Position numbers and translations under genes: made by a program. A DNA stretch of 64,000 nucleotides, taken from Druceiella hillmani (Eukaryota > Arthropoda > Insecta > Lepidoptera > Hepialidae). Location: the NCBI GenBank assembly GCA_039881145.1, contig JAYKKI010000027.1, positions 20,719,001 to 20,783,000 on the forward strand, in the 5' to 3' direction. The notes beneath the pieces were generated by a model, which was not told where the DNA came from, did no database searches, and saw nothing but the letters and a program-made list of their open reading frames with translations. This document shows, piece after piece, positions 10,101 to 63,084 of this stretch (positions within the stretch are counted from its first letter, which is position 1; each line of letters begins with the position of its first letter).

Positions 10101-11559
10101 AATGGTTTGTGGATTCCGATTACGGGAGAAAATGAGCGAAGTAACATACAAAATATGTATTAAGTCGAAAATTCAAAAAAGAAAATCCTGATAAAGAGCT
10201 TTATTAAATTTAATATAATAAAAACCTTCACAGCTTGCGGAAGAGGTTATAAACATTCTAATTTGGATACTACACGGATTAAGTAGTCAACCTAATAATA
10301 TACCTACACATAAAGACCAATGTGATAAGTCATGGTTGAGTCAGATTCATACTTAGAAAAACAAAGAAGTTTTGAGACTGATAAAAACACGTGAACGTAC
10401 ATGAAACTAAATATATGGAAGCAAGAAAGACATATCAAGACAAATTTTATTTAAGTGGGATATCATGAGATAAAGAATATCCTTCCCCTTCAGCCATATT
10501 TGTCAATGCTGAGGATCAGTTTCTTCGCCATGGGAAGCTTTCTCAAGACGTTGTGTCAGCAATTTCTGTTTTCGGTGTTCTTTATGGTATAGCTAGCAAC
10601 ATTTGTCGAACGTATCAGAGCTAATATTTAATTTTCTTTCTTCAACGTCATTCGGTGTATCGTTATCACTGGGCACTGTTTTGTTTCCTGCCGGTTATAA
10701 TTATAATAATTTTGCCTGTTTCATTTTCTCTTCTTATGTTCTGGATTTGACGGTCATTGTGTAAATATCTTACTGAACGTGTCACTTGTCTCAATTGATT
10801 TACGAGTTTTTTGATCTCAATTGTATTCCTTTATTCATAAAATTAAAATTAAAACATAAATTTTTTTTTAAATTCAATACTTTATTATTTGCGAAAGTCA
10901 AATAAAGATTAAAATAGATATTTTGAAGAAAATAACTCTGAATTTAGGAATTACAAAATTTTTTTCGTGCTTCGTTTACATTCAGTTTATGTACTGCTAA
11001 AATTTTAATTTGAGAGTTTTTTCGTTAGTTTTTCACACTTTTTTTAATGCGTTATAATTTTTGTTTTAAATTCGGTAATGTTCGTATGGTTAAATGTATT
11101 GAATATGTTTAAAAATAATTACAATCCCCTTCAGTTATTTAATTATTTTCTAGGGTCTCATTGTGGCACCTAAAACAAAGTTATATTTTACATTCATTGC
11201 ACTGAACAAAAATAATCATGTTTTGTTTTTATTGTTGTTTTTTCTTTTTATTTTGAATATAATGTATGGATGAAGCGAGACTTAATTCAAGTATTAATAC
11301 CGAGTCGTTATAATACCGTTGCTCGGTACAAACGTTCCTACATTATTTTACATAAAATCTTGTATGTCAATGTTAGTTTCATATTCGATCGACATGAATG
11401 GATTTATGCTAAAAATAACTGTTGTAAAATCTACGTATTTATATACATTAACTTTTTCCAAATGATTTTGTATTCTTTTCTGGGTGATCTCGTTTTTGTT
11501 TTCAATTACAAAAGAGGACGCTCATGTTGTGAGACGTCTTGGGCCCTGGAATAAAAAGA

Positions 11560-12149: not shown

Positions 12150-12780
12150 ATTTTTGTATTAAAATAATTATTTATATTCTCTAATTTATTTATTGTGTAT
12201 TATTGATTGAAAGTGTCATCGCAAAATTAGTCGATAGTTGTTTTTTACTTTTCTGTTACGTACTGTAATTATTTATGTTCTCTGATTAATTTATTTATTG
12301 TGTATTATTGATTGAAAGTGTCATTGCAAAATTAGTCGATAGTTTTTTTTACTTTTCTGTTACTGTAATTATTTATGTTCTCTGATTAATTTATTTATTG
12401 TGTATTATTGATTGAAAGTGTCATTGCAAAATTATTCGATAGTTCTTTTTTGCTTTTTTGTTACTTACTATAATTATTTATGTTCAATGATTAATTTATT
12501 TATTGGGTATTATTGATTGTAAGTATCATTGCAAAATTAGTCGATAGTTCTTTTTTGCTTTTCTGTTACTTACTGTAATTATTTATGTTCTCTGATTAAT
12601 GTATTTATTGTGTATTATTGATTGAAAATATCATTGCAAAATTAGTCGATAGTTCTTTTTGCTTTTCTGTTACTTACTGTAATTATTTATGTTCTCTGAT
12701 TAATTAATTTATTGTGTATCATTGATTGAAAGTGTCATTGCAAAATTAGTCGCTAGTTATTTTTTGCCTTTCTGTTACTA
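12150..12780. repeat. Minisatellite, six ~104-bp units
   Basis: The segment TTGATTGAAAGTGTCATTGC recurs near 12203, 12308, 12408, 12513, 12618 and 12722 with small variants. Each unit is followed by a TCGATAGTT box, a T-rich tract and TTCTGTTAC. The array is private to block A, since block B lacks it at the equivalent place, so it expanded after the duplication. Confidence 0.9.
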
Positions 12781-13195
12781 CAATAAACAGTAGCTGAATT
12801 TTATGTTCATTTTCTTTTATTACAATAATATACCAATTGGAGTTACTGACAATAATTAAGTTAGCTTATTTCCACCAGTACACGTTCGTCTATCCATCCG
12901 TTTGTGACAGCATCATAGCTTTGTAATTTTAAGATCGATTGTAATCAAATGTTACAGGAAGTTGTGGTTTAATTAAATAAACACATACAAAGTCAATAAA
13001 TATAGAATTTTTTTAAAAATATCTCGCCATATGTCCAACTTGTAGATGATTTTTTTCTACCAAACCTCATCCAGGTTAAGGAATGTGTGGCCTTTTAAGC
13101 TTTCTTGTTGCAAGATAAACAAGTTCATGCTTTGTCGAAGATTAAGTGAGATGGCCAGTTCACTGGTAGTTGACTTAATATTACACACACATATG

Positions 13196-15149: not shown

Positions 15150-15690
15150 ATGCAAGTGAAAACTGCTTCCGAAGTCATTCATAATTTTATTTGAAAATTT
15201 ATTTTCATCATTACTTACATTTGTGATGCTACTTGTATAGTATACACTAGTTTTAAGGTAATACTTACAGGATAATCATAGTCTGGTAATAATATAAAAG
15301 GCATGTAAACAAATAAAATGCAAATATTTCAGTATCCCATAAAAATAAAAACCTTGCAAATAATTCATTAAACCAATCTAAAGACTCCGTTTTTAACTGA
15401 ACTAAGAAAAAAAGACGGGAGACAACAATTCGACCTTCTTCAAACAACGACAACTCCATACAATGAGAAAGTGATGACAGTAACGAACAGCAATTTCCGT
15501 TCGAAGGGAGCAAACTGGATCATGCCCGTGTGATCCGTGTGACACTTGCAACTCGTTGGATAACTTTTGTTTGAACCTAAAGTTTGTATGTGTTTATATT
15601 TCTGTGGAGTTCGGAATTGTCGTTCATATTTCATAGATTGTTATTGTGATCTAGTTTTAAATTTATTTTACAGAAGATTATTATCTATAA
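15150..15690. repeat. Dispersed repeat R2, copy 1 (uninterrupted)
   Basis: Aligns collinearly with 46750-47600. Shared landmarks include GTTTTAAGGTAATACT, CAACAATTCGACCTTC, GAACAGCAATTTCCGTT, GCAACTCGTTGGAT and TCCGTGGAGTTCG-type blocks. A more distant relationship to 19430-19690 and 53650-53930 is visible in the GACAGCAATATCCGCC-like core. This copy lacks the hammerhead foldback that splits copy 3 and so serves as the empty-site reference (TTTCAGTATCC at 15327-15337). No coding capacity was recognised. Confidence 0.75.
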
Positions 15691-15699
15691 TCTGTAAAT

Positions 15700-18030
15700 G
15701 ACGATTTAGGTTTCGATTTAAGGTTCCAGATGAGGTATATTGGGGAAAACTTATATGAAGAGATAAATAAGCACTTTAGCCAAGCTCACATAAAAAAAAC
15801 CTGAAAGCAATTCGCTTATTTAAGAATCCTGTGTTCGTCGTTCGTTTGTTCGTCGACAAAACACAATGCACTGATAAAAAAGTTTTGGAAAATTTGCTTA
15901 AAATTAAATATCGTTGAACATGCTTAAAATTAAATATCCTTTGGCATGAATTTATTACGGTAAACAATGCCCAAATAAAAAGTGAAATTATTCTCCATAT
16001 TTCTTGGCTCTCCGATGAAATAAACAGGTACTTTCTAGATATTGATAATACAAAATGCTGAATTCGAAACACATTTATGGTCACAACCTAAAGTATAAAT
16101 GCTGTTTAGAGCAGTAAGCAACAGGAATCATTGTAGCAGATCAAACTCATTAAGTTGATTTTAAAAAGGTCTGTATAGTTGATTTTTATACAGCGAGATA
16201 GTAAAGATATCTCTAACTCTCACGCAAAGCATAAAATGATCTTTTGCCCTTTGTATTATCTTATTTGTGTGAGAGTGGATTTTCACATCTGGTCATGATA
16301 AAAACGAAATACAGAAATAAACTTAATGCTCAATCAAAATTAAGATTAAAAGTGATCAAAATTTCTTTTGAAATAGGCTCAATTTGCGAAAAGAAACAAG
16401 CTTATTTATCATATTAATTAATAACATATTGTTTTCTTTCCTATATTATCATTAGTAATTTATTTAAATGAAACATCTTATTTTCTTCACTAATACATTT
16501 GTTTTCAAAGAGGTTCACGTTCTTCAGGAAAAATTAACAGTGTTACGTGGGGCTACAAGCTTAAGAAACCCTGGCCTACAGAAAATATTCTAAGAGACAA
16601 AATATTTAATGGCTAGGAAACAAAATTTGGTGATTTAAGATCTTAAACATCTTTCTGATCTTTTTAAAAATTTATAATAAGAACTATTTGTCCAAAAAGA
16701 TAATAAAACCTGCGGGAATTTTTTGACGAATTGCGCCCACTGTATAATTAATCAACAATAAATAGCTGTATAATTAATTAATTAGAATAGTTAAAAACTA
16801 GGGAAAAAAGTCATCATAAATGAATACATTTATAAACCAAATTTGTTGTAACCAGGATTAAATCGAAATTAAAAAGTCATTAAAATCGGTTTTACTGAAT
16901 GCAGTTCGCCATGAATGAATTTAATTTTCAGTTCATCCCTCGTAAAATTACAGCAGATATGTAGATATGCATGAACTTTTAAATAGCAATGTTAGGTACA
17001 GGTATAGATACTAAAAAAATACAAGCAAATATAATAAAACAACTAGATAAAGTTTCTCACAATTTCGTTTTCCATACACCCTAATTTGACAGACAGTTTG
17101 TTTTTGTTTTGTGAAAAAATATTATACTGTGCTATCTATAGCAAAACTTAATGCCGAATAACACTTAGTGCTGTAAAATATTGACGTGTTTTTAACATAA
17201 CTGTAAATAAATGGTGTATGGAGCACTTTCATTGAATTTAAATATATAATAATTTTTTAATTAATGAAATCTCGTATAATTGTAATATTTGCCGCTATTT
17301 ATTTACTTAAAAATCGTGTAAGGTGAGTAAATACGATAACTAAAATTTCGTATTGTCCGTAATATTATTGTATTTGTCTTTCTTCTTCTAAGGACGATTA
17401 TTAATATTTTGGATCTGATTTTGGTTGTTAATGTTGATTGGAAATAGGGAATTAACAGCATTGATTTGAATTCATTCAATAAAATTTCTCAGCACCAATT
17501 TAAATTAGCCTATTGAACAGTTTTTTTACTTTTCATGATAGGGAATATGCGAAACATTCATATTATGCGAAACATTTATAATGGAATCTTAATATGTATT
17601 TTCAAAAAGGCTAATATTAGTAAGAATTCAATCAATGCATTCCTTTCACAATTCTTGAACCATTCTAAATTATCCACTACAGTTGTTTAATGCAATATAC
17701 AACGTAGAGTGATCCGACTCACAACAGAACCTTTAGTTAACCTATTTAAAGCATAAAGTGAAAAAAAATGTACATAGATGTTCACACGTTTGAAATAAAA
17801 CTGTATAATTCTGATTGCCAAATTAACTAATTTCTTATGTTACATGAAATAAACTAATATTATTAGGTTCTAATGATCTTAACTTTTAAGATATTTTTTT
17901 ATTACGTTTGTTACAGAAAATAACATTTTCATTAATATGAAAATTATTTTCACACGGAAGTAAAAAATATTTACGATACGTGTACGAAAATTAACATTAA
18001 AAATATTTCAGTTAAGTCGTTAATTATATT
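15700..18030. other. AT-rich DNA with one notable hairpin, no gene
   Basis: No convincing coding sequence; the 102-codon minus frame at 15776-16084 is compatible with chance in such composition. ACTCTCACGCAAA near 16214-16227 pairs with TTTGTGTGAGAGT near 16264-16277, with one G-U pair, to form a 13-bp stem with a ~38-nt loop. Nothing else was recognised. Confidence 0.45.
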
Positions 18031-26177: not shown

Positions 26178-26775
26178 AAATTTAATAGACTAACTAGCCC
26201 AGTGTAATTGATACAAAATTTGGGCCTAAAAATGTTTGTTGTGGGAATAGCGATTTCTAATTGATTTTAGAGGTAGCACTCTTAAGTATTATTAGAATTG
26301 AAAAGTTCTATTAAAAAAGAGAGTGGGTTGGAAATGGTTTTTTCTAAACAATTTTAATTCAATTTAATCTTTTAGATTGAAAGCTTGATTCTTCTTAACT
26401 TAATAGACTAACTAGCCCAGTGAAATGGAAACAACTTCGGCCTAAACATTTTTGTTTTGGGAATAATTATTTCTTTATTGGTTTTAAAGGTAGCGCTCTT
26501 TAATGAGAACTTGAAAAGTTCTATTAAAAATAGAGTCGGTTGGAAATGGTTTTTTCTAAAAAATCTTAATTCAATTTAATCTTTTAGATTGAAATCTTGA
26601 TTCTTCTTAATTTAATAGACTAACTAGCCCAGTGAAATGTAAATAACTTTGGCCTAAACATTTTTATTTTGGGAATAATTATTTCTTTATTGGTTTTGAA
26701 GGTAGCGCTCTTTAATGAAAACTTGAAAAGTTCTATTAAAAATAGAGTGGGTTGGAAATGGTTTTTTCTAAAAGA
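26178..26775. repeat. Tandem repeat, three ~215-bp units
   Basis: Units start with TTTAATAGACTAACTAGCCC near 26181, 26399 and 26611. Each carries a GGCCTAAA box, a GGTAGC(A/G)CTCTT box and GGTTGGAAATGGTTTTTTC. Copies 2 and 3 are more alike than copy 1, indicating stepwise amplification. Confidence 0.9.
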
Positions 26776-27409
26776 AACTTGTTTCTATTTAATATTTTAG
26801 GAAAATATTTATATCTTTTTCGGAAATTTCATTTTATATAACTTTTATCCAGGAATTTTCGTACGAATAATATTTTTAAAATCACGGTCTTGAGATAGGT
26901 ATGTTTATTTAAGACATGAGATTAAGGTATGGCTAATTATATTTCAGAAATATATATATACATATGTATAAATGACATTCCGTATTGAATTTTCGTGTTT
27001 CATATCCGATGGAACCAAACGGAAATACTGTTTTATTGCATTGGATACCCCATTATTGTAACAATTTACTTTGTTCAATAATTGGGTTCTTCATACGTCC
27101 ATAAATCTATCTATTATAGGCTTTTAACGTCTAAATGAGATAAGACAGAACTTCAAATTCAGGCGTCATATGCAGTTTCTTAGCTCACAATATGAAATAT
27201 TAAAATATTTTTAAAATCATTTAAAAAAATATTTCAAGTGGTATCCCTTACTTTAAGTGTTGTTGGATTAAAAATAATTAATTTCCATATTTGAAAATAG
27301 TTTAACAGAAATACTGAGTACTCTCAAATGTGTAATCTCTTATGAAAACATAAGTGCTACACGCATTTAAAGGGTTTGCTACGCAGTAAACTTCCGTATA
27401 GACTATAGT

Positions 27410-33009: not shown

Positions 33010-33990
33010 AAAAAGAAATTCGCAGATTTTTATTTAAAATATTCGTCAATGAACTCTCAGAGATGGTTCTTATCATACAGGTTCTTTTCAAGCCATGTAC
33101 AAAAGTCGGATGGCTTCTGGCTATCTGGTGTATAAGGAAATATGAAATTATTTCTCATTCCAGTTGCAATGATTTTAATCGAGTAATCTTGCAATTTGCT
33201 GATGGGATTTATGAAACAAAAAGAAAAGTTCATATTATGGGTGTTTTCGACGGAGTTCAAGTCACAAATTTTTAAGGTAATTGTAAAACACTATTGTGGT
33301 AATAATTGTCGTACTAGAAAGAATTTTCCATTAAACATGACTCCCTGTGGAAACATTTTCCACAAAACGAGCATGATTATGATTTTCTCCTGGAGTTTTA
33401 TCTTTTAGGCCCCGATAAAAACGTTGTCATGTACTTTCGTTAATAGTTTCCTCATATTCGTTCATCTGTCTGTCCGTTCCGGTTTGTTGTAGAAATTTTG
33501 CAAGCAGGTTTCTAGGGATAAATAATACTTTTTACAAAGATTCCATAGAGAAGAAGCATATTTGGTTAGATCCTTCGAAATAAAAATTATGTTTCATTTG
33601 CGATTTTTAATTTTTAAGTTTCTTTCAAAAGCTTTGAATAGGCGTGCAATATATCTAAATTTTTGGTGTTTGAGTAGGACTTCTAAATAAAAGTAAATTG
33701 GTTAACTTGTATCAATAACTTCATTAAATATGAACAACTGCGGAACTCTACTTGCGCGCGTTAAGGCATATACTTTCATATATTTTGGCAGCTCTACTCT
33801 TTTTGATTTTACTTGAAATGGTCAGACATTTGCACTTACGGATACGATTCAAATTCATAGCCCACTTCTCATCCTCAGTAATAAGGTGGTTTAACCAGTT
33901 TAATGCACGCCGAAAACATGAAGTTGTGTATATTTATTTGCACCATATTGATATGATTTTAACTAAAGTCATGGGGTGTCCAAATCGTAT
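33010..33990 (-). pseudogene. mariner-type transposase pseudogene (block B copy)
   Basis: Minus-strand pieces occur in family order. IWTPHDFS (about 33950-33980) matches WVPHEL. WLNHLITEDEKWAMNLNRIRK (33810-33885) is the TGDEKW region, with the first-Asp neighbourhood and Trp retained, and runs to a stop after LNARK. After a gap comes the open frame at 33057-33260 with IIATGMRN and FPYTPDSQKPSDFC, matching HPPYSPDLAPSDY. Then EFIDEYFK, a stop and KSANFF match the C-terminal FF..K...FF motif. It is the paralogue of 4990-6060 within the large duplication and somewhat better preserved around DEKW and PYTPDS. Confidence 0.8.
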
Positions 33991-35899
33991 ATTTATAGAT
34001 TTTGCTTAATTTGTGTTTTTTACACTCAGACATCCAGAGCTGGGTCGGTCCCTTAATGTCTAGTCACTACTACAGAATCGCATAAAGCACCACCTTAGAA
34101 TTGCTTCGAACACAGGATCGGGAAAAAATCTCTGACTGGTTTTAACATAGACTATATTTTCTCAATATCGACGGTCAGCAATGAAACTATAAGAGAGTCA
34201 AAGAACGCGGCTTGCTCTTAATACATATCCAATTGTAGAATATTCTCAAAATGTCTGCAACAGTCTAGATTTAAAAAAAGACGTTCATTATTAATTATAC
34301 GATTTATTTGATAAAATATTTTTAAAAATGGAATCCACATATCCCTTTACCCTTGAAATTTACCGCCACATACCATCTCCCTATAAATATCGTTTATTAA
34401 AGTGATATAGTATACGCAAAGAGTCCGAAATTCAAACTCTGGTTTATTTCCGATGTTGAAAATATAAATATCATTCGTAATTTTTTAAAAATATAATAAC
34501 CTCGATCTAAGTTTCGAATTAAATTTCTTTTGCTATTTTTGAAATTGAGAATAACTTCTTGACACAAAAAATACGAGTAAATATTTCAAAGAAAATAAGA
34601 TATAAATTTTATACGATTTTACAAAATATTACACATATGTGCAAACTTTCTAATGTATCTTTATTCCAAATTTAATGACGAATACAGTTAATAAAAAGAA
34701 AATGGAAATCGTCCTCAAATGGAAATGATTTAAAAACGAGGAAATTTTACGTCTTCAAAGTATTTAGTGATATATATTAAACAAATCTACTATATATGCT
34801 ACTAAAGCCCTTTTTAAGTTAGAAATAAAAACTATAATTTTAATGCTAAAACTAATTTTAGATAACAAAGTTAAAAGAAATTTCCAAAAGTTTCTAATAT
34901 TTTTTTATCAATGAACCTCAAATGATGGAAAAAAATACTACTGATAGATCAATTGTCCACAAAAATCATTACTTGTTATTTTTAATTTATTTGTAATGAT
35001 CCGCTTTCACATTTAACGAAATTTAATAAATGGCTAAATTAAAATGTACTTAATTAGTCGCTTTTCCAGGTTAGGCTTGATGTATTTTTTTTACGTATTG
35101 TTATTCCAGAATGCAAGTTATATAAACCATCTATTGATCTACGATACGTTCAGAATATTTACAGTCGAAATATTATGAAGGAAAGAAGATTGTTTAAATA
35201 TATTCCTCACATTACTGTAACCGGAAACCCTAAACTGAGAATTGTATCTTCTAAACCATTAATCACACTTTCCGCTTGAGAATAAAACGTCAGACAAACG
35301 TTTATATACATCGACGCAAGCTGACAAAATTCCAAACTATTTCGTGTAAAGTTGACTTTAACCGGAAGATCAAACTCCTGCGGGGACAGAGGTCATCGGA
35401 CCAAATTTTCATTGGAGAGCAGAGGATATATTCACAGCACTAACGTGGAAAATGATGGATTGCAGTAATAGCTGCGAAAGGGAACATAATGTATTTCCAG
35501 TGTAAAAATTACTTGCAAGGTTATGTTAATATTTATTTTATTATAACTAATATCTGGAAAATTTTTCAAAATTATTGGTCTAGTAATATCAGTGAAAATT
35601 TTCTTTTAAAATAACTGAAAAGTAAAATGCAATGTTAACATAATACCGAATAAAATAACTATATTTATAAGCAAGCAAATATTACGTTTTTGACACATGA
35701 AGAATTGTTAATAAGAACTAAAAACAACAATAAACCTAGCGAAATATATAATAACTTTTTGGGAATGATTACAAAAAAATTATCAATAAAGAATATTTCT
35801 TTAACATCTAGCTATTTATTAGCCTAAATTAATTAAAAATAAGCTTTTAACTGATCTTAACAACAGTTTTGTGCTTTTAACTCTCTTTTCGGGTTTTAC

Positions 35900-36570
35900 A
35901 TGTTTTTTTTTCTGCACTTGTTTCATGCAGCTACTTTCAAGAGAAATTTACGAAATACGCGGGCGTTTATGAACTATCAGGAAAAATATGAATTTCATAA
36001 AAAAATTCAGGATATTTTCATTTCTCTAATTTACTATTTCAATGAAAAGTTTAAAGGAGTTTATTTTTATATTTTCTTGAACTAAGAGAGATTTGGTGTT
36101 TGTTTAATTTACTTCATTTAATGCAATTATCATGTCAGTTGTTTTTGTAAGTTTTTTTTTGCAGCCAAATTACGTTACGTATATTGCGTGTGCCGAAATA
36201 TCAGAAAGCAATATGAGGTTTATAATTTTGGAACGGAATTGAAAAATATCTCATATTATTATGATAAAATGTTTTTGATTCTTTAATAATTTAATTCCTT
36301 TTCATATCAAAAGTTAGGAACATATTTGGAAATCCAAAAAACAGATGTTCAAGACAAACTTGTAATTTCTTTTACCAAATGATAATTCCTTTTATAAATG
36401 TTTGTTACTGACATCATCATTGACGAAATGGTATAATGAGAAGAGTAATAACGTACTTATCACGACACTGGCCCATATATGATGTCCTTTAAAATACACT
36501 CGCCAACAGCCACATCAAAATAATACGTTGGTATATTTCCTTTTTTAACAATTACCCCATACAATTTAAT
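35900..36570. other. AT-rich DNA private to block B
   Basis: No counterpart in block A and no recognisable gene. It leads into the (TA)n-bounded insertion. Confidence 0.4.
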
Positions 36571-36578
36571 ATATTCTA

Positions 36579-36580
<2 letters not shown>

Positions 36581-36673
<93 letters not shown>

Positions 36674-36675
36674 AA
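36581..36675. repeat. (TA)n microsatellite
   Basis: Nearly pure TA with one TTTA interruption at about 36640. Confidence 0.95.
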
Positions 36676-36689
36676 TATATGATTTCTAA

Positions 36690-36954
36690 AAGGTGTTTTT
36701 TGGTCGAGCGGCTCGATCTCTTTAACTACTACACCAAAAAAAATAAAAAAAATACTCACTTAAAGCTTATGTTTTCTAGTTTGGGCGAAAAATATAAAAA
36801 AATTCGAAAAATATCTTTTTGTTATAAAAATTAATTTTTATAACAATTGGCATGAGCGCCATCTGTGGGCGACACATCAAATATCTTAGCCAAATTGTAT
36901 ACTTGGAACACGCTAGATGGCGATATAGTACGAAGACTTTGCACGGGTCAGCTA

Positions 36955-36955
<1 letters not shown>
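36690..36955 (+). mobile_element. Truncated non-LTR retroelement 3' end-like segment
   Basis: Contains GGCATGAGCGCCATCTGTGG, then GCTAGATGGCGATATAG, and ends GACTTTGCACGGGTCAGCTAGT immediately before a (TA)n tract. Endings of the type GCACGGGTCAGCTAGT followed by a simple repeat are typical of dispersed RTE-like tails in insects. GCCATCT and AGATGGC can pair. A perfect 24-bp palindrome occupies about 36820-36843. No coding part remains. Class assignment is inference. Confidence 0.5.

Positions 36956-37035
<80 letters not shown>
36956..37035. repeat. (TA)n microsatellite, likely element tail
   Basis: Pure TA for about 80 bp, directly abutting the CTAGT end of the preceding retroelement-like segment. 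Confidence 0.95.
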
Positions 37036-37039
<4 letters not shown>

Positions 37040-37569
37040 TTTTTAATTTAATAAGTTGTACTCTATTTTATATTCTCTTCTTTGATATATAGTGGTATTC
37101 AGTCAACTTTCAAGTAATATGATAAATTCATTGTATATTAAATATTTATAGCAATATACAATGAATGTCAAAATCAATATGTGACAGATGGTAAATTAAA
37201 AATATTAAGGACCATTTAATTTGATTGGCAAAGTATTTCAAATTCCGCTTGAAAATAATGAAATAGAACAACCACGACTCAAGTAAAGAATTTGAAGATC
37301 ACTGCGTTACGTTTTATAATCAATACGGTTAATTTATAATTTAGAAAACGAATAAAAAATATAGACAGAGCTAAGATTGGAAAAACTCAAATATATAAAG
37401 CTTACATAAAAGTTAGGACAAAAAAGATTGCTGGAGACAATAGAAAAATTGAAGGAGGATAGTCGTAGGAGTTAAAACAAATATCACTCAAGTAATTTGA
37501 GATATTTGTTTATCTTATTTTTCTACGAAATAATAAAAAAAACCAAAAAGCAATAACGTAAAACAGCTG

Positions 37570-38390
37570 TTACGTTATACGATTATGAATGATATTAAAA
37601 AATTCACGTTCTTTTTAAATAATTGAATTTCAATTTTTTGGATGATGAAGAACTTTTGGATAGGCTACTTGACTTATATTGTAAAACTGTTTTAAATTAT
37701 TCTGTATTGCATTATAAGCATATTACGTTTGTATTTCCAGGATGCATGTCGTATTTTTCATAAAAATAACTTTTAAAGAATAAATTAACAAACTCACGCC
37801 AAAAACGCAGTTTTTGATACATTACATTTTTGTAAACATAACAATCCTATACGCCGAAGGGATATGTTATTTATTTTCATATTAAAATATGATTAATATT
37901 AAATTTGATATGACCTGAAAGGATATACATTAAAAACGACGTATTTAAATAAAATCTGGAGCTGGCTATTATCTATTATAAAGAAATCAATTTAAAAAAT
38001 GTCATACCTGATGATTCACTTTTTCTTTCATCATTAAGAACTTATTATACAATTTGAAATATTCTTATACTTAATATTTAAGTATTTATAATAGGAATAT
38101 AAGTAATTTTAATTATCCAACTTGCATATTTACTTAACCTGTCAATTCCAACAATTACATCATGTTTATATTGCATCAACAACATTTAGGAAACAATAAA
38201 GTCTATTTGTCTCTGGATTAATTTTCGAATAGTATTATAGTGTTTGCGTGCGGTGTGTGGTATGTTATGTTAGTTAAACGTTAAATGGTTTTTACCTTTT
38301 TTGGTTATTTTTTCATACACGTTCATTTTCTTTTTTAATTGTAACAAATTATTTTTACTTTTTACTCTTTTAAGTAAGTATACATACACA
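37570..38390. other. AT-rich DNA in block B, nothing recognised
   Basis: No clear match to block A and no gene-like feature. Confidence 0.4.
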
Positions 38391-38396
38391 TATTCA

Positions 38397-38440
38397 TATG
38401 TATATATATATATATATATATATACATATATATACATATA

Positions 38441-38476
<36 letters not shown>
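38397..38476. repeat. (TA)n microsatellite with CA interruptions
   Basis: TA runs interrupted by TACATATATATACAT-type units. Non-coding. Confidence 0.95.
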
Positions 38477-38477
<1 letters not shown>

Positions 38478-38972
38478 CTATTGAAATATTGAACTAAATA
38501 CAGTGCATAGGAATTAAATAAATTTGTTTAAAATATTAGATATGACCGAAAATAATTTTGGTTAAATGTATGATTTGTAATATATTTCTTTTTATATACA
38601 GCACACACACAAAAATTGTATTAAATGCAAAGTGTGATAGTTGTAAATTTAAAAAAAAAGAAAAAAGGACCATATATTAAAAATATAAAGACAGTCGATA
38701 CAGTCGACCTGCTCACAAACTTGTGACGTCATCTGACTTTTAACCAATAACAGGGCGTCTGCGATGCTGATTGAATTAAAAAAAAATATTGTGATTTCTT
38801 TACTTTTTTTTACAAAATATAAACTTATTCTTTCGAAAATGAAAAACAATACGCTTATTTACGTTACAATCTAATTGGCTGACTACGAATTTTGGTATAT
38901 TTCTCTATTGTCAAATATCCTATTGTAACAGTAAAAGAGTGTTAATGAAATCAAAGGTGCAAGAGCGCGAGT

Positions 38973-39122
38973 AATTAATGTTTTATATAAAGATTTCTTT
39001 TCAATTAATGTTTTATATAAAGATTTCTTTTCAATTAATGTTTTATATAAAGATTTCTTTTCAATTAATGTTTTATATAAAGATTTATTTTCAATTAATG
39101 TTTTATATAAAGATTTCTTTTC
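38973..39122. repeat. 30-bp minisatellite, five units
   Basis: Five head-to-tail 30-bp units start at 38973, 39003, 39033, 39063 and 39093. Each begins AATTAATGTTTTATATAAAG. Only one C-to-A change (unit 4) is seen besides the array end, so the array is young. Because 30 is a multiple of three, it yields repetitive open frames on both strands that should not be read as genes. Confidence 0.97.
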
Positions 39123-40689
39123 CATTCTTTCTTTTCAATTATAGAAAAAAAATAGGATAAAATGTTGTAAATAATAATTTTTTATTTCAATATTATTTTA
39201 CATTTTTAGATTAAAGAAATTTTGGAAGAGAAATTAGAGTTGTCCTGTTCCGTTAATGGGGGAAAATGAGCGAAGTAATATGCATTTATGTAACAATGTA
39301 TATTATGATACAGCTAAATATTTAGTCGTAAGATTCAAGAAAAAAAAAACTTTCACACAAGGTAATATTAAATTCAGAAAAAATAAAAAGAAAACCTTGC
39401 TGAAACCGACCCCAGGCAAAGATTGGTTAATTAGACAGAGTTAATGTTATACTTTCATACTGCAATAAAAAGCAAATGCATGCTTTGCGGAAGAAGTGGA
39501 AATATTCTAAATTGACTGTTATACGAGCTAATTCTGACGAACTGAAATAGCGGGTTAATCAGTTGCTAATCTAATAACAATAAAGGCCTAATCTACCAAT
39601 TGATTGAATTCATATTTAGACAATGGAAAAAAAAAACAAATAGAAAAAAACAAAGAAGTTTTTAAAGTGATAACACATAAACGCCTATGAATATGAGAGT
39701 ATATAGAAGCAAGAAAGAGTTGCCAAAGAGTTATCGTTCCTGCATTTTCTTAGTGGAATATCGTACGATAAAAGAGACCGTTTTCCTTCTTTAGTCATAT
39801 TCGCCAATACCGAGGAACAGGATATTCTTTATGAAAAATGTCTCAAGTTCTTGGGCCTGCAGTTAATCTTTTCAGTATTCAAAACAACAATAACCACCGA
39901 ATAAGAAGGACACTGAAGAGTATAAAATATTGAAAATATGTGTACTCAGTTGGAACTTTCGCGGCAAAATATCGTTTCTGAACATAAATAAATCGGCGAA
40001 ATACTGCTACTGCTAGAGATTTTTAGAATCGGTGCCAACTCTCAAATTAAATTTTCATTTGACCATACAGGTATCAGGCCAAACAAAAAAAAAATTATTA
40101 TTTAAATTGGTTGAACCTGTATCGTTCAAACTAGGTTACGTCTCCTACGCTCTTCAATTTTGGGGAAATCTATGATATAAGTACAATTTCTATAATTAGA
40201 TTCTAACTACAATGGGACCGTGCTAGGCGTATATGGATGTCGGAAATATATATATATAAAAGAAGAAAGAAGTACAATCAAATTGAAAATCGTTAAAAAT
40301 TAGGTTCAATGTATTAAAATAATTCATAGAGTGCTTACCATTAACACAAAGTTCTCAATTTCAAGTGGAAAACAAGAATTAAAATATAAACACTAAATTT
40401 GATGAAGTTAAGGAAGTTGAGCTTATGAATACCAACGGACATCAAATTAAGCTAATTTTGTTTCTGTAATGTTCAAACTATAAGCTAATAATCTTGTATT
40501 TAATGTCATGTTTATAGTAAACAGAAATGATTAAAAGAGTCACAAAGCTTTGCCCCTGTTTCCGTTTGCCCCGTCAACCGGAAATTACTGTTCATTACTG
40601 TTAACGGTCGTTCGGTGTATTGTTATTATTGGGCACTCTTTTGTTTTCTGTCGGTTAGTGCTTATCATTGATAATAATTTTGTCTCTGT

Positions 40690-40744
40690 CATTTGTCCTT
40701 ATTATTATCTGAGATATCAAATCTCAGTAATAATAAGGGCAAAT
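40690..40744. repeat. Long hairpin private to block B
   Basis: CCTTATTATTATCTGAGAT and ATCTCAGTAATAATAAGG are inverse copies with one inserted base and a ~5-nt loop. The pairing extends outward to ATTTG/CAAAT. The equivalent place in block A (about 10710-10740) lacks it. Confidence 0.7.
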
Positions 40745-42564
40745 GGAAGTCACGATGATCAGTTATTGTGTAAATAAGAATTATTTACAAAATATTTTAC
40801 TGTACCTGTCATTGGCCTCGATTTTTTTATGAGTCCATTGGTCTTAATTTCATTTCTCTTATTTATAAAATTAAAGTAAAAAAAGTAATATCTTTTTTCT
40901 TCATGTTTTATTAATTATGAAATGAAAATAATGATTTTAATGAATTCCAAGAAAATAAACGAAAGTTTACGTATTATGACACATTCTCGTGTTTAATGAA
41001 AAAATATAATAATCGCAGAACTAATTCAGTTAGTTTATTTCTAAAGCTTACTTTGAGAGTTTTTTTACCTTAGTTTTTCAAAACAATTTTAATACGTTAT
41101 GATTTTTGTATTAAATTCACTAATATGTATATCGAAAAATTTATCAAATCTGTTTAATTAAAATCCACTAAGTTACTTAAGTATTCCCCGGAGTTTTAGA
41201 ATATATGTGCTTATATTACTAAAGATTTACAATTTAACCTCTATATATTCTCTTAAATAGCATATACAAATAAGGAGAAGGTCACAAGGCTGCTTTTCAT
41301 CTCATTAAATATAGTCAAGTGCAGTTTATATTAAATATATCGCACCACTTACAGAAATATATAAACAAATAGCGATTTTATTTGTCCAAGAATAATCAAG
41401 AAAAAATTTCTAGAAAATTGTCAATCGTTCATAAAGAAACTGAGACATGTTCGTTGAAATCTTTCCTGAAAAGTGAATTATTTACTTTTTCATTCAGAAT
41501 TGGTTGAGAAAAAGTGTGGCCTGAAATGATATTGACATTTTACATTTGGCACACCAAACGAAAATAACGATATTTCGTTTTTATTGTTATTTTTCTTTTT
41601 AATTTTGAATATTATATTTGGGTGATGCAAATCTTTCCTAAAATAAGTATTTTTTTTAGATAAATACTGAATTTATTAATATTATTACGATTATTACCAA
41701 GAAAATATAAATGTTTTCGTATAACTCTGCATCAAGTCTTATAGACGAATATATATTAGCTCCATATTTGATCTACATGAACGAAACTGTGCTATTAGAA
41801 ATATTTGTTAAACCTGCGTACTTATTTATGAGTATATACACTTGCTTATTTTCATATTATTTAATGAGGAATATTGTTTTCTTTTTCGGGAATAAATTGG
41901 TATTTTTAAACGTCAAAGAAGCAACTATTTCATTTCATTTGGTCCGTCTATCCGTTTATTTGTGACAATGTAGAAGCTATATTATTTATCAAAAAGTCCC
42001 TCTCTAAATGCCTCCCCAGATATCAAACTTGTAGATGAATATTTCTCTCGCAAACGCCACGGAGTGGGGTAGAGTCGAAGAGGTCTTTTAAAATTGAATA
42101 AAAAAATATTTAACACTTTTGCTCCGATTAATTCATATTTTCACTCACAACATTTACAAAATGTGATACATTTCATGAAAATGATCTTGTCACTTTTCTG
42201 GTCACAAAGCTTTCGATATTTCACAGAAAGTGAATGAAATTTGAATTGATTCTCATGAATCAAAAACTTTTTCAGCAATACATATAAAGTACATTCGATC
42301 AATAATAATAATTTTAGGTGTCGACAAAACGAAGGCCACTAAGAATTGCAATTTTCTCTTGAGGTTCCGAATATAAATGGTCCCATTTACGGTCATTCCT
42401 AAATATTTTTTATACCGCATTCTTCAATAATTTATAGCATTTAGAAAGAAATAATTTCAGTACTAATAATAGCAATATCAATTCAGTTACTAATCGATCA
42501 CAACTTATTCATTATTGAATTGAAAATTGTGGTTATTGTAAAATAAATTATTACAAATTATTAT

Positions 42565-46702: not shown

Positions 46703-47006
46703 CATTATTTTAGCGTATAATAAAATCATATTTATGATCATATGTATAAAAAAAAAATGAAGACAGCTTCCGAAATAATGCGCAATTTTTTTTCAATTCT
46801 TGGTAACATTTGTAATGCTTTTTGTGCATGTGTAAATGCGATGAACGGCATACACTCAGTTTTAAGGTAATACTCATAAGACAATAATGGTATCCGTCTG
46901 GAGATAATGTAACAAATATAAACAATTACAATACAAACGTTTCATTATCCACAATTAAATGAAACTACGTGACGTAGTATTATTTCTACTTTCTTTAAGT
47001 TCTTTA

Positions 47007-47047
47007 CCACGACCTAGGTTTCGTTGAATTACAACATCTTCAGGTGG
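47007..47047 (-). ncRNA. Hammerhead ribozyme, best-preserved copy
   Basis: Read on the minus strand: CCAC (stem I, 5' side), CTGAAGA core (47043-47037), one extra U, stem II GUUG/CAAC with a 5-nt loop, GAAA (47022-47019), and a very short stem III in which CC pairs with GG across UA. GUC follows as the cleavage triplet (C17 at 47011), then GUGG (47010-47007), which closes stem I against CCAC. This is the type I layout with a tiny stem III reported for Penelope-like elements, where such ribozymes self-cleave or act as dimers. The extra base between A9 and stem II departs from the strict consensus, though one-base insertions there are known in natural hammerheads. All core bases are present. 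Activity is not shown here. Confidence 0.85.
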
Positions 47048-47075
47048 GCTATTAGCAAAGATCTTTGCTAATAGC

Positions 47076-47116
47076 CCGCCTGAAGATAGTGTAATACAAC
47101 GAAATTTAGGTCGTGG
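47076..47116 (+). ncRNA. Hammerhead ribozyme, inverted partner, partly decayed
   Basis: Plus strand: CCGC (stem I, one G-U with GUGG at 47113-47116), CTGAAGA (47080-47086), a weakened stem II, GAAA (47101-47104), stem III AUU/GGU with G-U pairs and cleavage triplet GUC ending at 47112. Core bases are intact but stem II no longer pairs well. It is the mirror partner of the minus-strand ribozyme in the same foldback. Confidence 0.7.
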
Positions 47117-47619
47117 TAAAGAACTTGAAGAAAGTAGAAATAATACTACATCACGTAGTTTAATTTAATTGTGACTAATGAATTTCTACAATATTAACGT
47201 CAAATCTATTCAATATTTCATTATCCCATAATAATTTAATTATTTACCTTGGAAATAATTCATTATATAAATCGAAACTCAGGTTCAGTTCTTATAGAGT
47301 AGTACTTAAATTTCGAAAAAACGACGAGTCGCAACAATTCGACCTTCCTCAAAGACAATTCCATACCACGAGAGTGGCTACAGTAATGAACAGCAATTTC
47401 CGTTTGAAGGGAGCGAACGGAATCACGCTCGTCTGATACGTGTGATATGTTGCAACTCGTTGGATTACTTTTGTTTAATCCTAATATTTGTATTGTATGT
47501 ATTCATATTTCCGTGGAGTTCGTAACTGTTGTTCATATTTTGTGGTTTATTTTTGTGACCTTATTTGAAATTTTAATTTACAGATCAGTATCTATGTTCT
47601 CTAAATAATGACTATGTTT

Positions 47620-48940
47620 TATTTTAATGTTATAGATTAATGTTATATATTAGAATTAGTTCTATAGCCTATCTCACAGGTAGTAACTAATAAAAACAAG
47701 TTGAATGCAATTTGCATTTTTGAAAACTAGCTACACGTCCTGACATTCCCCGGACAAAAAAGAACTATAATTGGATATTTTTAATCAATGTTTTATAATG
47801 ATTATTTATTGTTAATTTATTGAATCTTTTTTTCAATGGTTTAGTTATACTGAATAACTGTGCTGTTCTGAACAACTAAACGAGAAAAAAAGGTCAAAAA
47901 TAAGAAAGAATTTTTAATTATATCTGGGAATTATTTCGCAGCTTTCATTACCATTTACGAGTCTTTAATCAAACTTTAGTTCAATTTTACTGTAAGGTCA
48001 TAATAGAAAGCAGTTCGCACCAGGCAAGAGTTAATAGTGAGCAACGTACATTATTTTATTTTTTGCAGATTTTCTTGTTATTTGGAATATCTTCACACAT
48101 AATTTTATTGTATATATGTATCTATAATATTTTAAAATGTTAACTCAAAAAGGTATGTGGCACTCTTCACTTCCTTTTGCTTAACACAATCTATAAATAC
48201 ATACATATTCTTCTGTTATCAACAACAGTGACGTTAAGAACCATTTATTAGCACAGAAACTATTAAAACGTCCAGCAATAAAAAAATCATTCCCTGAAAG
48301 AACAACGCGGTAATAAAAAGCTATTTATTTACAAGAAAACGAACGGAACCACGCAAGTAAAATGTGGGAAACCTTGGACATTACGAACTCTATATTATTC
48401 GTAAATGCATATTTATGAGATCAGTTTTTAAGTTAGCGTTTGTTTCAAGGTTTGAATGAAAGGAAAGAAAATATTTCAAAGGAATATATATCTTTTAAAT
48501 GGACCTGTAAGTAACTTAGTTCTTTTATTTTTTCTTTTTAAAATCAAGTGACCATATAAATATGGAAAGCTTTTGAATTTCGAATCGTTATTGGTAAAAG
48601 TCTAACTAACGTAATATTAAGCGAAAAGGAAAATTCAATTGAAGGTTCCAATGAAAAAAGTGAACCATAAATCCTTAATTTCGAATACAACATAAGGTTG
48701 AGTATCAATATTGTGGAAAATGTTTACGTGATAAGCATCTAAATATATTTAAAATAACCAAAAAACATTATTTATGAAACACAAAAGTAATACGTAGACA
48801 TAACATTTTACACTTAAAAATATATTAGACATATAATAGTAGCATTTGCTTATTTTTTGGATTAAACTTAACATTATTAAAATTTAAAAAGAAAATAAAA
48901 AAACGTCAAAATACGTACTACTTGTAAAAAAACTGTTTTA
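47620..48940. other. AT-rich DNA, nothing recognised
   Basis: No gene or repeat partner identified. Confidence 0.4.
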
Positions 48941-51339: not shown

Positions 51340-51870
51340 CAATCGAAAGTTTTCCAATATCATCATCAATCGAATTTAATATTCTTATAACAAAACTTAA
51401 ATTGAATTACTTTCACCTTAATTTTATTTATTAAATAATATTTTCTAAATACTATGCCAATATCATCATTAATCGAATTTAATATACTTATAACAAAAAC
51501 ATTGTACCTTGGATTAAAATATTACTTCCGCCTTAATTTTATTTATTAAGTAATATTTTCTAAATACTATGCCATAACATGTAATATTTTCTAAATACTA
51601 TGCCAATATCATCATCATTCGAATTTAATATACTTATGACAAAAACATTGTACCTTGGATTGAAATATTACTTCCCCCTTAATTTTATTTATTAAGTAAT
51701 ATTTTCTAAATACCATGCCATAACATATAATATTTTCTAAATACTATGCTAATATCATCATCAACCGAATTTAATATACTTATAACAAAAACATTCTACA
51801 GTGGATTGAAATATTATTTCCTCCTTAATTTTATTTATTAAGTAATATTATCTAAATACTATGCCATAAC
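51340..51870. repeat. Tandem repeat, four units of ~107-145 bp
   Basis: Units share ATATCATCATCAATCGAATT or a close variant, an AATATACTTATAACAAAAAC box, AATTTTATTTATTAA(G/A)TAATA and TTTTCTAAATACTATGCCA. Unit length alternates because a 35-bp TTTTCTAAATACTATG segment is itself duplicated in the middle units. Confidence 0.9.
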
Positions 51871-51879
51871 ATCTAGAGG

Positions 51880-56160: not shown

Positions 56161-56171
56161 TTTTTTCTTTA

Positions 56172-56212
56172 CCACGACCTAGGTTTCGTTGTGTTACAAC
56201 ATGTTCAGGTGG
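56172..56212 (-). ncRNA. Hammerhead ribozyme relic with core mutation G8 to C
   Basis: Same layout as the copy at 47007-47047: CCAC/GUGG stem I, stem II GUUGU/ACAAC with 3-nt loop, GAAA, CC-UA-GG stem III and GUC. However, the core reads CTGAACA rather than CTGAAGA, so the conserved G8 is C (position 56203). G8 is essential for catalysis and pairs with C3, so this copy should be inactive although its stems are the best paired of the set. It lies downstream of, and on the same strand as, the PLE coding relic. Confidence 0.8.
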
Positions 56213-56617
56213 GCTATTAGCAAAGATTAACTCTTAGGAACATCCAACAGCATTTATATGTTTCAAGTGCAATAGCGGAAGCCTGGTTTGTGTGGGTTTT
56301 CCCACTGTTAGTGAGTTTATTCTAGGGGAGCGGTGTAGGTTTTATTATATTTCCGAGAGTTATACGATATACCAGTATTTTAGTAAGGATAATAAATTCA
56401 ATTGTTGTTATTATATGAGGTTGCACAATGCAAATGTTCTGGTGTATGTAATAAAATTAAATGGAAGGTGTATGTAATAAAATTAATTTATTCTCGGTAA
56501 TATATTTATACAAAAGCACCCTTGCTTTTGGGAACCTTTGTTTATCTGGAAGTTAAAACAAGGTTGTACCACTAATTCAACATATCTCCGGTTTTATTTA
56601 TTCATATATTTATTTAT

Positions 56618-56668
56618 ATGTATTTATATATATATATATATATTAATATATATATATATATATATATG
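56618..56668. repeat. (TA)n microsatellite inside the PLE minus arm
   Basis: Two TA runs separated by TTAA. It lies within the ~400-bp segment that is absent from the opposite arm. Confidence 0.9.
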
Positions 56669-56791
56669 TTTTTTAAAATTTTTTATATTGGTTTATTTAT
56701 TTCCTTCTATTTTTTTTAATATACTTATATTTATGTGTGTATTTGGGCTGAAACAATACTACAGAATAAATGTTGTCTAATTATATAATGT

Positions 56792-57355
56792 CTAGAAGAT
56801 ATTAAGTATGGGTGATGATATTATATTTAGTTGTTCATTTAATATATTAACCTTGGCGTCTTTTTTATGTCTGTTTATTTCTAATGTTTCTAGGATATTA
56901 AGTTTATTACCTTTTGTATTTATTTGTAATATATAGGGGGCATTATCAGTATGAGGGTAATGGTTATTTTAAATGAGATGTTTAGTAAAGTGAGATGTGT
57001 CTGACTTGTTATTTCGCCAGCCGGTAATGTGTTCTTTATATCTTGTGGTAAAATCTCTTCCTGTGTGACCTATGTATACACTATTAGAGTCGGTACATTT
57101 AAGTTCATAGATACCACTCTTTCTATGTTTATCTATTTTTTCTTTATTATTAATAAGGGTTTTACCCAAGTTATTTAAAGTACTATAAGCACATGTATTA
57201 TTTATATTTTTATTATTAGTTAAGGGTTTTCCTAATTTGAGTGATACATTACCTATGTATGGGATAGATTTATAGTAAATATTATTATTATTTAGTGCGA
57301 CCGGGTATATTTCTTGTATTAGTATTGTTTTATAGTTTTTATTTCTTTCCGTAAA
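56792..57355 (-). pseudogene. Penelope-like element protein, C-terminal part with GIY-YIG endonuclease
   Basis: The minus frame is open from 57355 down to a TAA at 56969-56971 and, beyond it, continues in frame to TAG at 56792-56794. The linker has IPYIGNVSLKLGKPL and TCAYSTLNNLGKTL. The endonuclease follows: SGIYELKC (GIY), VYIGHTGRDF (YIG and Arg) and RYKEH (Glu), i.e. all hallmark residues. The second Cys of the usual C..C pair before YIG is missing. After the stop come HTDNAPYIL, INTKGNKLN, LETLEINRHK and LNEQLNIISSPILNIF, a typical PLE tail. PLEs use a reverse transcriptase plus this nuclease for target-primed integration. The reverse transcriptase part is absent, so the copy is 5'-truncated and dead. 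Confidence 0.85.
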
Positions 57356-57401
57356 TTAGGTTTTTCTAGAGCTTTAACCATCCCTCTAGAAAAACCTATT
57401 T

Positions 57402-57605
57402 AATCACTTTGCTAAACATCTCATTGAAAATAGCCATCACCCTCATACTGATAATGCCCTCTATATATTAGAAATAAATACAAAAGGTAATAAACTTAAT
57501 ATCCCGGAAACATTAGAAATAAACAGACATAAAGAAGACACCAAGGTTAGTATATTAAATGAACAACTAAATATAATATCATCACCCATACTTAATATCT
57601 TCTAG
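57402..57605 (+). pseudogene. Penelope-like element protein tail (opposite arm)
   Basis: The plus-strand frame reads NHFAKHLIENSHHPHTDNAL, then INTKGNKLNIPETLEINRHK, SILNEQLNIISSPILNIF and stop at 57603-57605. It is the same tail as in the minus arm, but here without the internal stop, since Glu replaces the TAA. It is joined directly to a CTAGAAAAACCTA segment that in the other arm lies upstream of the endonuclease. The GIY-YIG domain has therefore been deleted. Confidence 0.85.
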
Positions 57606-57759
57606 ATATAATATAATCAGACAACATTGATATAATAAAACCTACACCGCATTCCCTACAATAAACTCACTAACATAAACAGTGGGAAAACCCACACAGA
57701 CCATGCTTCCGCTATTGTACGTTGTTGGATGTTCCTAAGAGTTAATCTTTGCTAATAGC

Positions 57760-57794
57760 CCACCTGAAGATGTTACAATATAACGAAACCAAGG
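57760..57794 (+). ncRNA. Hammerhead ribozyme relic lacking the cleavage site
   Basis: CCAC, CTGAAGA (57764-57770), an extra U, stem II GUUA/UAAC, GAAA (57785-57788) and CC are present. The following CCAAGGTAAAG shows a ~6-bp deletion relative to CCTAGGTCGTGGTAAAG. This removes the GUC cleavage triplet and the 3' strand of stem I, so self-cleavage is impossible. Stem II differs from the other copies by paired changes that keep it base-paired. Confidence 0.8.
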
Positions 57795-57859
57795 TAAAGA
57801 ACTTAAAGAAAATAGAAATAATACTACATCACGTAATTTCGTTTAATTGTGAATAAGAA

Positions 57860-59594: not shown

Positions 59595-60075
59595 GGCAAG
59601 TTCGGCACGTTGTTTAATATTTATTGTCTATATTGTCGATAGAAATTGTCATAAGTAAATATTACTTAAAACAAGCTGGTGGTCTTGATATGTTGCCTAA
59701 TATTATCTGTAATGTTGTTAGGGATTTTCATAAGTAAATAGTAATTTAAACAAGCTGGTGGTCTTGACGCGATGCTTAATATTATCTGTAATGTTGTTAG
59801 AGATTTTCATAAGTAAATAGTAATTTCAACAAGCTGGTGGTCTGGACACGATGCTTAATATTGTCCGTAATGTTATTAGAGATTTTTATAAGTAAATATT
59901 GCTTTAAACAAGCTGGTGGTCGTGGCACGTTGTATAATATTATCTGTAATGTTGTTAGGGATTTTCATAAGTAAATAATACTTTAAACAAGCTAGTGGTC
60001 TTGGCACATTGCATAATATTGTCTGTAATATTGATATAGATTTTCATAAGTTAATAGTATATTGAACAAACGTCA
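59595..60075. repeat. ~80-bp tandem repeat, about six units
   Basis: CAAGCTGGTGGTC boxes recur at about 59672, 59752, 59831, 59910 and (variant) 59989. Each unit includes AATATT(A/G)TCTGTAATGTTGTT, GATTTTCATAAGTAAAT and a poorly conserved GGCACGTTG-like segment. Outer units are more divergent. Confidence 0.95.
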
Positions 60076-62835: not shown

Positions 62836-62848
62836 CGTATACAATGAC

Positions 62849-63070
62849 TGTTGACAAATATTGAATATATTTGACAATATAAATATTGAATGTATTTGAC
62901 AATTAAACGAAACTAAGTGATGTAGTATTATTTCTACTTTCTTTAAGTTCTTTACAAAGATTCTTTGCTAATAGCCCACCTGAAGACGTAGTAATACAAG
63001 GAAACCTAGGTAGTGGTAAAGAACTTAAAGAAAGTAGAAATAATACTACATCATGTAGTTTCATTTAATT
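62849..63070 (+). mobile_element. Second short Penelope-terminus foldback, one ribozyme lost
   Basis: GTATACAATGAC flanks it at 62837-62848 and 63071-63082 (12-bp target duplication). A ~56-bp extension with two TATTGAAT..ATTTGACAAT units precedes the left arm. The right arm (to 63070) is complete and ends TTTAATTGT. The left arm is missing ~50 bp, exactly the ribozyme, between TTCTTTAC and AAAGA. The extension resembles that of the first foldback in reverse (TATTGAAT.GATTTGAC), so it belongs to the element. Confidence 0.8.
62976..63016 (+). ncRNA. Hammerhead ribozyme, stem II decayed, GUA cleavage triplet
   Basis: CCAC (62976-62979), CTGAAGA (62980-62986), GAAA (63001-63004), CC-UA-GG stem III, GUA as cleavage triplet (A17 at 63012) and GUGG (63013-63016) closing stem I. 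GUA is a permitted NUH triplet. Stem II has lost the GUUG/CAAC pairing; only an alternative 3-bp helix, GUA/UAC around GUAA, can form. Activity is likely reduced. Confidence 0.7.
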
Positions 63071-63084
63071 GTATACAATGACAG

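Follow-up and report, generated by a model that had tools for sequence, protein, structure and literature searches.

Is the palindromic element at 46951-47215 of the window, the whole 64,000-nucleotide stretch of DNA analysed here, a ribozyme dimer that transposes as a unit, as the original prediction held, or is it produced in another way? We found that the element is real, abundant and derived from Penelope-like elements (PLEs), and that it is probably not a self-propagating ribozyme dimer. PLEs are a third class of eukaryotic retroelements, and their insertion mechanism has been little explored beyond in vitro work on one element. The source genome offers tens of thousands of arms, with both duplications, both start sites and the cDNA joint often readable; it is therefore possible to test here if priming takes place at both target ends, if each end has its own start site and if the templates are two RNAs.

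Anatomy of the window element

Arm positions were numbered from the palindrome centre (U1) outward to U153. The untailed left leader arm (U1-U111, 46951-47061, minus strand) and the tailed right leader arm (U1 to U153/154, 47062-47215, plus strand) abut without spacer in GCAAAGA|TCTTTGC, where two complete arms share a two-base overlap, AT, at the centre (47061|47062). In the self-comparison of the window, the element matched its own inverted copy with 90.9% identity over 242 bp. Two inverted arms of ~110 bp had been predicted; the arms are indeed inverted and spacerless but unequal, with 111 bp on the left and 154 bp on the right, and the last ~42 nt of the right arm (~47174-47215) have no left counterpart. 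The left arm stops near the end of the PLE leader, and the excess of the right arm corresponds to the PLE 'tail' (47174-47215, plus strand), which spans the ATG at 47178, equivalent to the start codon of the PLE, and roughly the first 12 codons in the frame taken from the PLE locus L150.

The 11-bp sequence TTTCATTATCC flanks the element on both sides (46940-46950 and 47216-47226) and has no other occurrence in the whole window, in agreement with the predicted coordinates and target duplications. A single unfilled paralogous site had been proposed at 15327-15337, and the self-comparison supports it: 15242-15337 aligns to 46850-46950 and 15323-15731 to 47212-47637, with TTTCAGTATCC at 15327 differing from TTTCATTATCC by one base. 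This empty site is included in an old duplication of the window (5141-11147 and 15242-15731 versus 33134-41185 and 46850-47637), visible as collinear matches of 66-80% identity, ~28-32 kb apart, over a stretch of at least 10 kb. A second two-arm copy, partly rearranged and with its tail at the left, was found at 62852-63074, flanked by TATACAATGAC at 62838-62848 and 63072-63082. The window has a GC content of 28%, and its self-comparison revealed also tandem repeat arrays at 12151-12786, 26179-26800, 51354-51875 and 59604-60069.

The palindrome folds as one long hairpin. Each arm contains a hammerhead-like motif, at 46999-47061 on the minus strand (predicted cut between 47011 and 47010) and at 47062-47124 on the plus strand (predicted cut 47112|47113), in which CUGAAGA, GAAA and the C before the predicted cut are present in the conserved order. 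The arm core matches the minimal type I hammerhead form and is, from its sequence, a predicted ribozyme. The claim of a hammerhead core in each arm stands for the core residues, but the right arm is damaged: the first two pairs of helix II are lost (U27 G>A, U28 T>G), and in helix III one A-U and two G-U pairs are all that is left (U44 and U45, C>T). The left arm, with its core residues intact, differs from the reference at 2 of 111 positions, one of which, U35, closes helix II. Rfam returned no hammerhead at gathering score in the whole window and, on the palindrome, only microRNA-hairpin and snoRNA noise. For a consensus-like arm (L084), the one listed match was Hammerhead_HH9, which aligns CUGANGA, CGAAAC and GUC at a sub-threshold score (14.6 bits, E 0.25, cutoff 52). 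The minimum-energy folds of the arms are not those of a hammerhead, and the fold energies speak neither for nor against one.

Copy number, outer ends and target duplications

The source genome (2.586 Gb, 181 contigs) was searched with several patterns. The 61-nt ribozyme part was found at 47,658 sites (23,804 + 23,854; at most 3 mismatches; reversed control 0). The 28-bp palindromic centre occurs at 6,140 sites with at most 2 mismatches and at none in the reversed control, and is therefore not due to chance. Arms of the subfamily defined by U13 = T and U63 = A numbered 16,572 (8,350 + 8,222; over 67 nt, at most 1 mismatch); exact centres with two such arms numbered 1,171, and 338 centres (159 + 179) have one arm of each U13 type. 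Arms joined to a PLE body numbered 7,433 (3,720 + 3,713; at most 2 mismatches in 31 nt), and ratios among these genome-wide counts are rough because the patterns overlap and differ in length and tolerance. The best 40 of 4,730 candidate copies covered ~1-265 of the query in one orientation and ~1-211 to 1-237 in the other. Eight of these best 40 copies lie on contig C11, where a long tandem array (C11:16943756-16983887) carries the palindrome; seven of the eight run in the same direction, in steps of 5,692-5,698 bp or twice that.

Two samples were selected by an exact arm only, the first with 40 loci from two stretches of contigs C2 and C1 (L064-L103) and the second with 20 subfamily loci from C1 (L127-L146). 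Head-to-head pairs within 150 bp were present at 27 of 40 and 17 of 20 loci, respectively, or 44 of 60. The 16 unpaired loci comprised five body-linked arms (L084, L088, L089, L102, L133), nine single arms (L066, L078, L086, L092, L093, L095, L096, L100, L134) and two complex loci, one with three arms (L082) and one direct tandem (L145), the sole such case in the 60. Among eight single arms inspected, without a shuffled control, three (L078, L093, L095) had 8-11 bases in common immediately beside the two arm ends, and in L100 shared flank bases lay further off the arm end. At the fixed centre, the single arms of L066 and L092 still have a short stretch of inverted sequence.

The outer ends of the pairs follow a one-tail rule. 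In 25 of the 27 pairs of the first sample and 14 of the 17 pairs of the second, that is 39 of 44, the arms end near U112 on one side and near U153 on the other; the exceptions are two first-sample pairs with an odd left arm and L131, L135 and L141. A pair scan over 103 loci gave pairs at 86, many of them centre-selected, of which 68 were S/T (untailed/tailed), 11 O/T, 4 O/S and 3 S/S, so that 18 of 86 break the rule. Both outer ends are sharp steps, and T amounts to 60-66% in the two bases beyond the untailed end. The duplication test was restricted to the 68 S/T copies, which include centre-selected and similarity-selected loci, leaving out the 11 O/T, 4 O/S and 3 S/S pairs. Exact duplications of at least 8 bp were found in 45 of the 68, compared to 1.1% when flanks were paired by shuffling (200 shuffles, none of which gave more than 5), and 12 bp was the commonest length. 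In the second sample, 15 of 17 pairs had duplications of at least 8 bp (without a separate shuffle). The expectation of many further copies with target duplications was thus borne out, as was that of a mobile insertion, and the family combines inverted pLTRs, one of them tailed, with a short target duplication of variable length (11 bp in the window), as in PLEs.

Junctions, inner ends and the PLE leader

The 44 arm-selected pairs showed 42 kinds of junction, with the fixed centre in two of them. Complete arms are joined bluntly in L072 and L140 and with the two-base overlap that constitutes the fixed centre in L073 and L139; the other joins contain 1-44 nt of filler or have one arm shortened between U4 and U121, and the fillers of L071, L074, L083 and L103 repeat pieces of the arm. 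Inner spacings of 14 exact subfamily head-to-head pairs, among the places listed, were 48, 38, 33, 4, 15, 44, 4, 16, 33, 30, 25, 4, 12 and 20 nt (range 4-48), the three values of 4 being the fixed centre. This centre nevertheless outnumbers every other single junction by far (6,140 sites with at most 2 mismatches; 1,171 exact in one subfamily), which counts against purely random joining, and its 14-nt string GCAAAGATCTTTGC was present at 9 of the 60 arm-selected loci. At 25 of 50 centre-selected loci, at most 54 nt are inverted beside the centre, often with the arm's outer part present past a gap; fold-back of cDNA ends therefore also makes the fixed centre. The fixed centre would be favoured if a self-complementary cDNA end folded back or if two of these ends annealed.

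Where the arm stops matching the sequence upstream in the PLE was determined for 40 arms. The match ended at U3 in 5, U2 in 4, U1 in 6, U0 in 13, U-1 in 8 and U-3 in 2 arms, and deeper in 2; thus 21 of 40 ended at U0 or U-1 and 15 at U1-U3. The two deepest ends belong to the body-linked L084 and L088, and L089 (U-3) and L102 (U3) are bodies with a substitution. The preferred inner end, at AAUCUUUGC, is what the 5' end of an RNA would leave. It differs from the predicted ribozyme cut, U51|U52, near which one arm only ends among the 44 pairs (L141, at U53), and the inserted templates were therefore mostly uncleaved, in agreement with the in vitro work on the anole PLE (PMC11167929).

Coding sequence is absent from the window element, and the PLE body was identified in longer copies carrying the same arms. 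L104 consists of an untailed arm with ~1 kb of inverted PLE 3' part, followed by ~1.9 kb of PLE with a tailed arm, and is flanked on both sides by ATACGTGAAAT. It encodes a reverse transcriptase (RVT_1, E 1.1e-11) and a GIY-YIG domain scoring just below the cutoff (E 2.7e-4, 21.6 bits versus 22.6). L149, with arms U1-112 and U1-153, lies between copies of ACAAATTTAAC. A long PLE fragment in head-to-head arrangement, bounded on each side by a leader arm, lies also within the window (56163 to about 57850-57856, plus strand); its termini had been equated with the arms of the palindrome. The arms are there, and the palindrome junction does fall at the point from which this long element goes on into its body. 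However, the arm at the left reaches no further than ~U63-66 and that at the right has no tail, so that the one-tail plan is not clean, and no flanking duplication was seen.

Among 150 listed of 2,005 reverse transcriptase (RT) candidates, 28 of 31 neighbours within 6 kb were head-to-head (693-3,798 bp apart), three were tandem (3,096-3,104 bp) and none tail-to-tail. Open frames of 810 aa were present at 16 of the same 150 places. The tandem places, with steps of ~3.1 kb, include C77:2606780 and 2609876, C117:5171257 and 5174361, and C10:25895637 and 25898736. Going by these tandem places and the 810-aa frames, the PLE looks recently active. Beside one body-linked PLE end, at L106:2250-3578, open frames resemble by eye a Gag zinc knuckle and the RT of another retroelement.

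The position of the arm in the mRNA was deduced from L150, in which U113-U153 lie at 414-454 and the ATG at U117 opens MNFY*INAKYIQYLK... in the frame of the 729-aa open frame that begins at 652. In this copy the frame is interrupted by a stop at codon 5 and again immediately ahead of the 729-aa frame, and the sum of 78 + 729 codons fits the 810-aa frames found elsewhere. By this continuity, U0-U116 would be the 5' leader of the PLE mRNA and the tail its first dozen codons.

Origin of the palindromes

The comparisons of sequence point to the element at 46951-47215 being probably a leader-only PLE insertion, in which two leader cDNAs, one per target end, would have been made and then joined. 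This reading draws on its anatomy, the duplications, the one-tail rule, the diversity of the junctions, the discrete inner end and the two long copies of the same plan. The palindrome appears to be built anew at each insertion and not to jump as a unit. At an AT-rich site, the PLE enzyme would make cuts ~12 bp apart in the two strands, and each target end would prime reverse transcription inside the PLE RNA, near the mRNA 5' end. One cDNA would start from ~U112, right before the start codon, and carry no tail, and the other from ~U153, ~12 codons into the ORF, and carry the tail. Both would run through the hammerhead-like motif to the RNA 5' end, AAUCUUUGC, at U-1/U0, where the two cDNA ends would be joined with small overlaps, snap-back copies or filler, giving a head-to-head leader pair whose outer ends are unequal, whose junction is particular to the copy and which is flanked by a target duplication. 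Start sites near the mRNA 5' end, with a copy of ~154 nt, would explain why leader-only inserts prevail.

In the Poseidon PLE of Anolis carolinensis, both strands are cut by the enzyme and extended, with two internal sites of initiation separated by the 30-40-bp tail; the hammerhead lies at the ORF start, its motif cuts only with protein present, and insertion proceeds without need of ribozyme cleavage (PMC11167929). The present family resembles it in the tail, the hammerhead-like motif and the putative use of two internal starts with extension of both strands. However, the two strands showed no start-site difference in vitro, whereas we infer one site per target end, a difference that counts against the model, and the main text of that study makes no mention of products in which both ends are joined (PMC11167929). 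The Poseidon ATG opens helix II, whereas here that ATG stops at codon 3 and the PLE-protein frame runs from U117. Penelope of Adineta vaga has head-to-head pLTRs with an optional 31-bp tail at one inverted pLTR, 8-10-bp target duplications, palindromes at the inverted junction and a pLTR extending into the first ORF codons (PMC3846280), a plan that the present family shares. The A. vaga inserts described there usually contain the ORF and are few, whereas the arm-selected loci here are mostly leader-only and the arms number tens of thousands.

We then compared the two arms of each copy. Over U15-112, derived bases common to both arms of a copy numbered 11, against 4.3 ± 2.0 in shuffled pairs (reached in 6 of 2,000 shuffles), and over U64-112, which was never used for selection, 5 against 1.5 ± 1.2 (32 of 2,000 shuffles); these tests used 73 of the 86 pairs, leaving out 13 picked by similarity (L001-L008 and L059-L063). 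In the subfamily sample, tested on 15 of its 20 copies, the values were 16 against 4.6 ± 1.8 (0 of 5,000 shuffles). Both templates therefore came mostly from one source or close kin. Among the 14 of 20 mixed-centre copies with U63 readable in both arms, four pair both subfamily types in phase at U13 and U63, one differs at both sites in opposite phase and nine differ at U13 alone. The arms of L115, L118, L121 and L124 also differ by subfamily markers, and two different templates thus seem to occur. No diagnostic substitution between left and right arms exceeded a frequency difference of 0.2 in the 73 copies. A17G, considered as a lineage mark for its presence in the tailed arm of 5 of the 13 copies listed, was dropped since these copies had been picked by similarity to the window copy.

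Four other explanations were weighed against the joining of two leader cDNAs. A separate RNA of ~155 nt, from a SINE-like or retrozyme-like parasite of the PLE, might be the usual template in place of the mRNA leader, in keeping with the discrete inner end and with arm-selected loci that are mostly leader-only (44 of 60 paired, 5 of 60 body-linked). We consider it unlikely: the same arms end PLE bodies and the tail reads on in the PLE frame, so the mRNA leader suffices, and a solo insert does not include the PLE sequence before U0, the expected place of a promoter.

Self-priming, in which a single cDNA folds back and copies itself, has been proposed for PLE palindromes on an antisense RNA template (PMC3846280). 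Palindromic centres, the short inverted snap-back pieces at many of them and the similarity of the arms within a copy are all expected from it, and the shared bases of the arms count to that extent against two separate cDNAs, as does the long copy at 56163-57856, which lacks the one-tail rule. A copied second arm should nonetheless repeat the tail, whereas 39 of 44 pairs have one untailed arm; the two arms of some copies are of different types (the mixed centres and L115, L118, L121, L124), and many junctions contain filler or one truncated arm. The one-tail rule and the mixed arms favour two starts, which makes self-priming quite improbable as the general route, although it may make part of the joints.

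The original prediction of a non-autonomous foldback ribozyme dimer, here taken as transcribed and mobilised as a whole with the aid of the PLE, is more doubtful still. Thousands of fixed-centre copies with duplications exist and the arms of a copy are alike beyond chance, as such a unit would require, but its internal sequence should be constant across independent insertions, and the diversity of junctions and the inner ends therefore argue that the element is probably not a transposing dimer. At most ~14% of the 16,572 subfamily arms, a rough figure, fit in its 1,171 exact centres, left and right arms show no diagnostic substitutions, the outer ends are the known untailed and tailed PLE ends, and the longer L104 and L149 share the head-to-head plan. 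Replication as a unit may remain for the minority with the fixed centre. An assembly artefact or a DNA-transposon (foldback or MITE) family, to which inverted repeats and flanking duplications could point, has almost no chance of being the explanation given the unequal ends, the varying junctions, the site-specific duplications, the long relatives with RT and GIY-YIG, and the paralogous empty site in the window.

Beyond this locus, the joining of two leader cDNAs leads to a tentative generalisation, for and against which the case is nearly balanced: PLE insertion may be a two-template, two-start-site reaction, often with separate RNAs, whose usual product here would be a pair of complete leaders and not a shortened element. 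If true, the dispersed minimal hammerheads of animal genomes would for the most part be paired leader inserts, and the 5' end of PLE mRNA could be read from their inner ends. Thousands of minimal hammerheads are dispersed in animal genomes, and their role is termed a mystery in a review (PMC7761336). Reportedly (Lunse et al. 2017), they have the same core and a very short helix III, and some lie in PLE pLTRs; in the one genome considered here they would have their origin in paired leader inserts, with cleavage as a prediction. Head-to-head repeats, tails and hammerheads are known for PLEs; the scale, the one-tail rule, the junction diversity and the discrete inner end are added here. Among the titles and openings of abstracts listed, outside the subscription literature, none described a leader-only twin family. 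Metazoan retrozymes are likewise small non-autonomous repeats with type I hammerheads and many copies, but they are head-to-tail tandems with circular RNA (PMC7229834), whereas 44 of the 60 arm-selected loci are head-to-head and L145 alone is a direct tandem.
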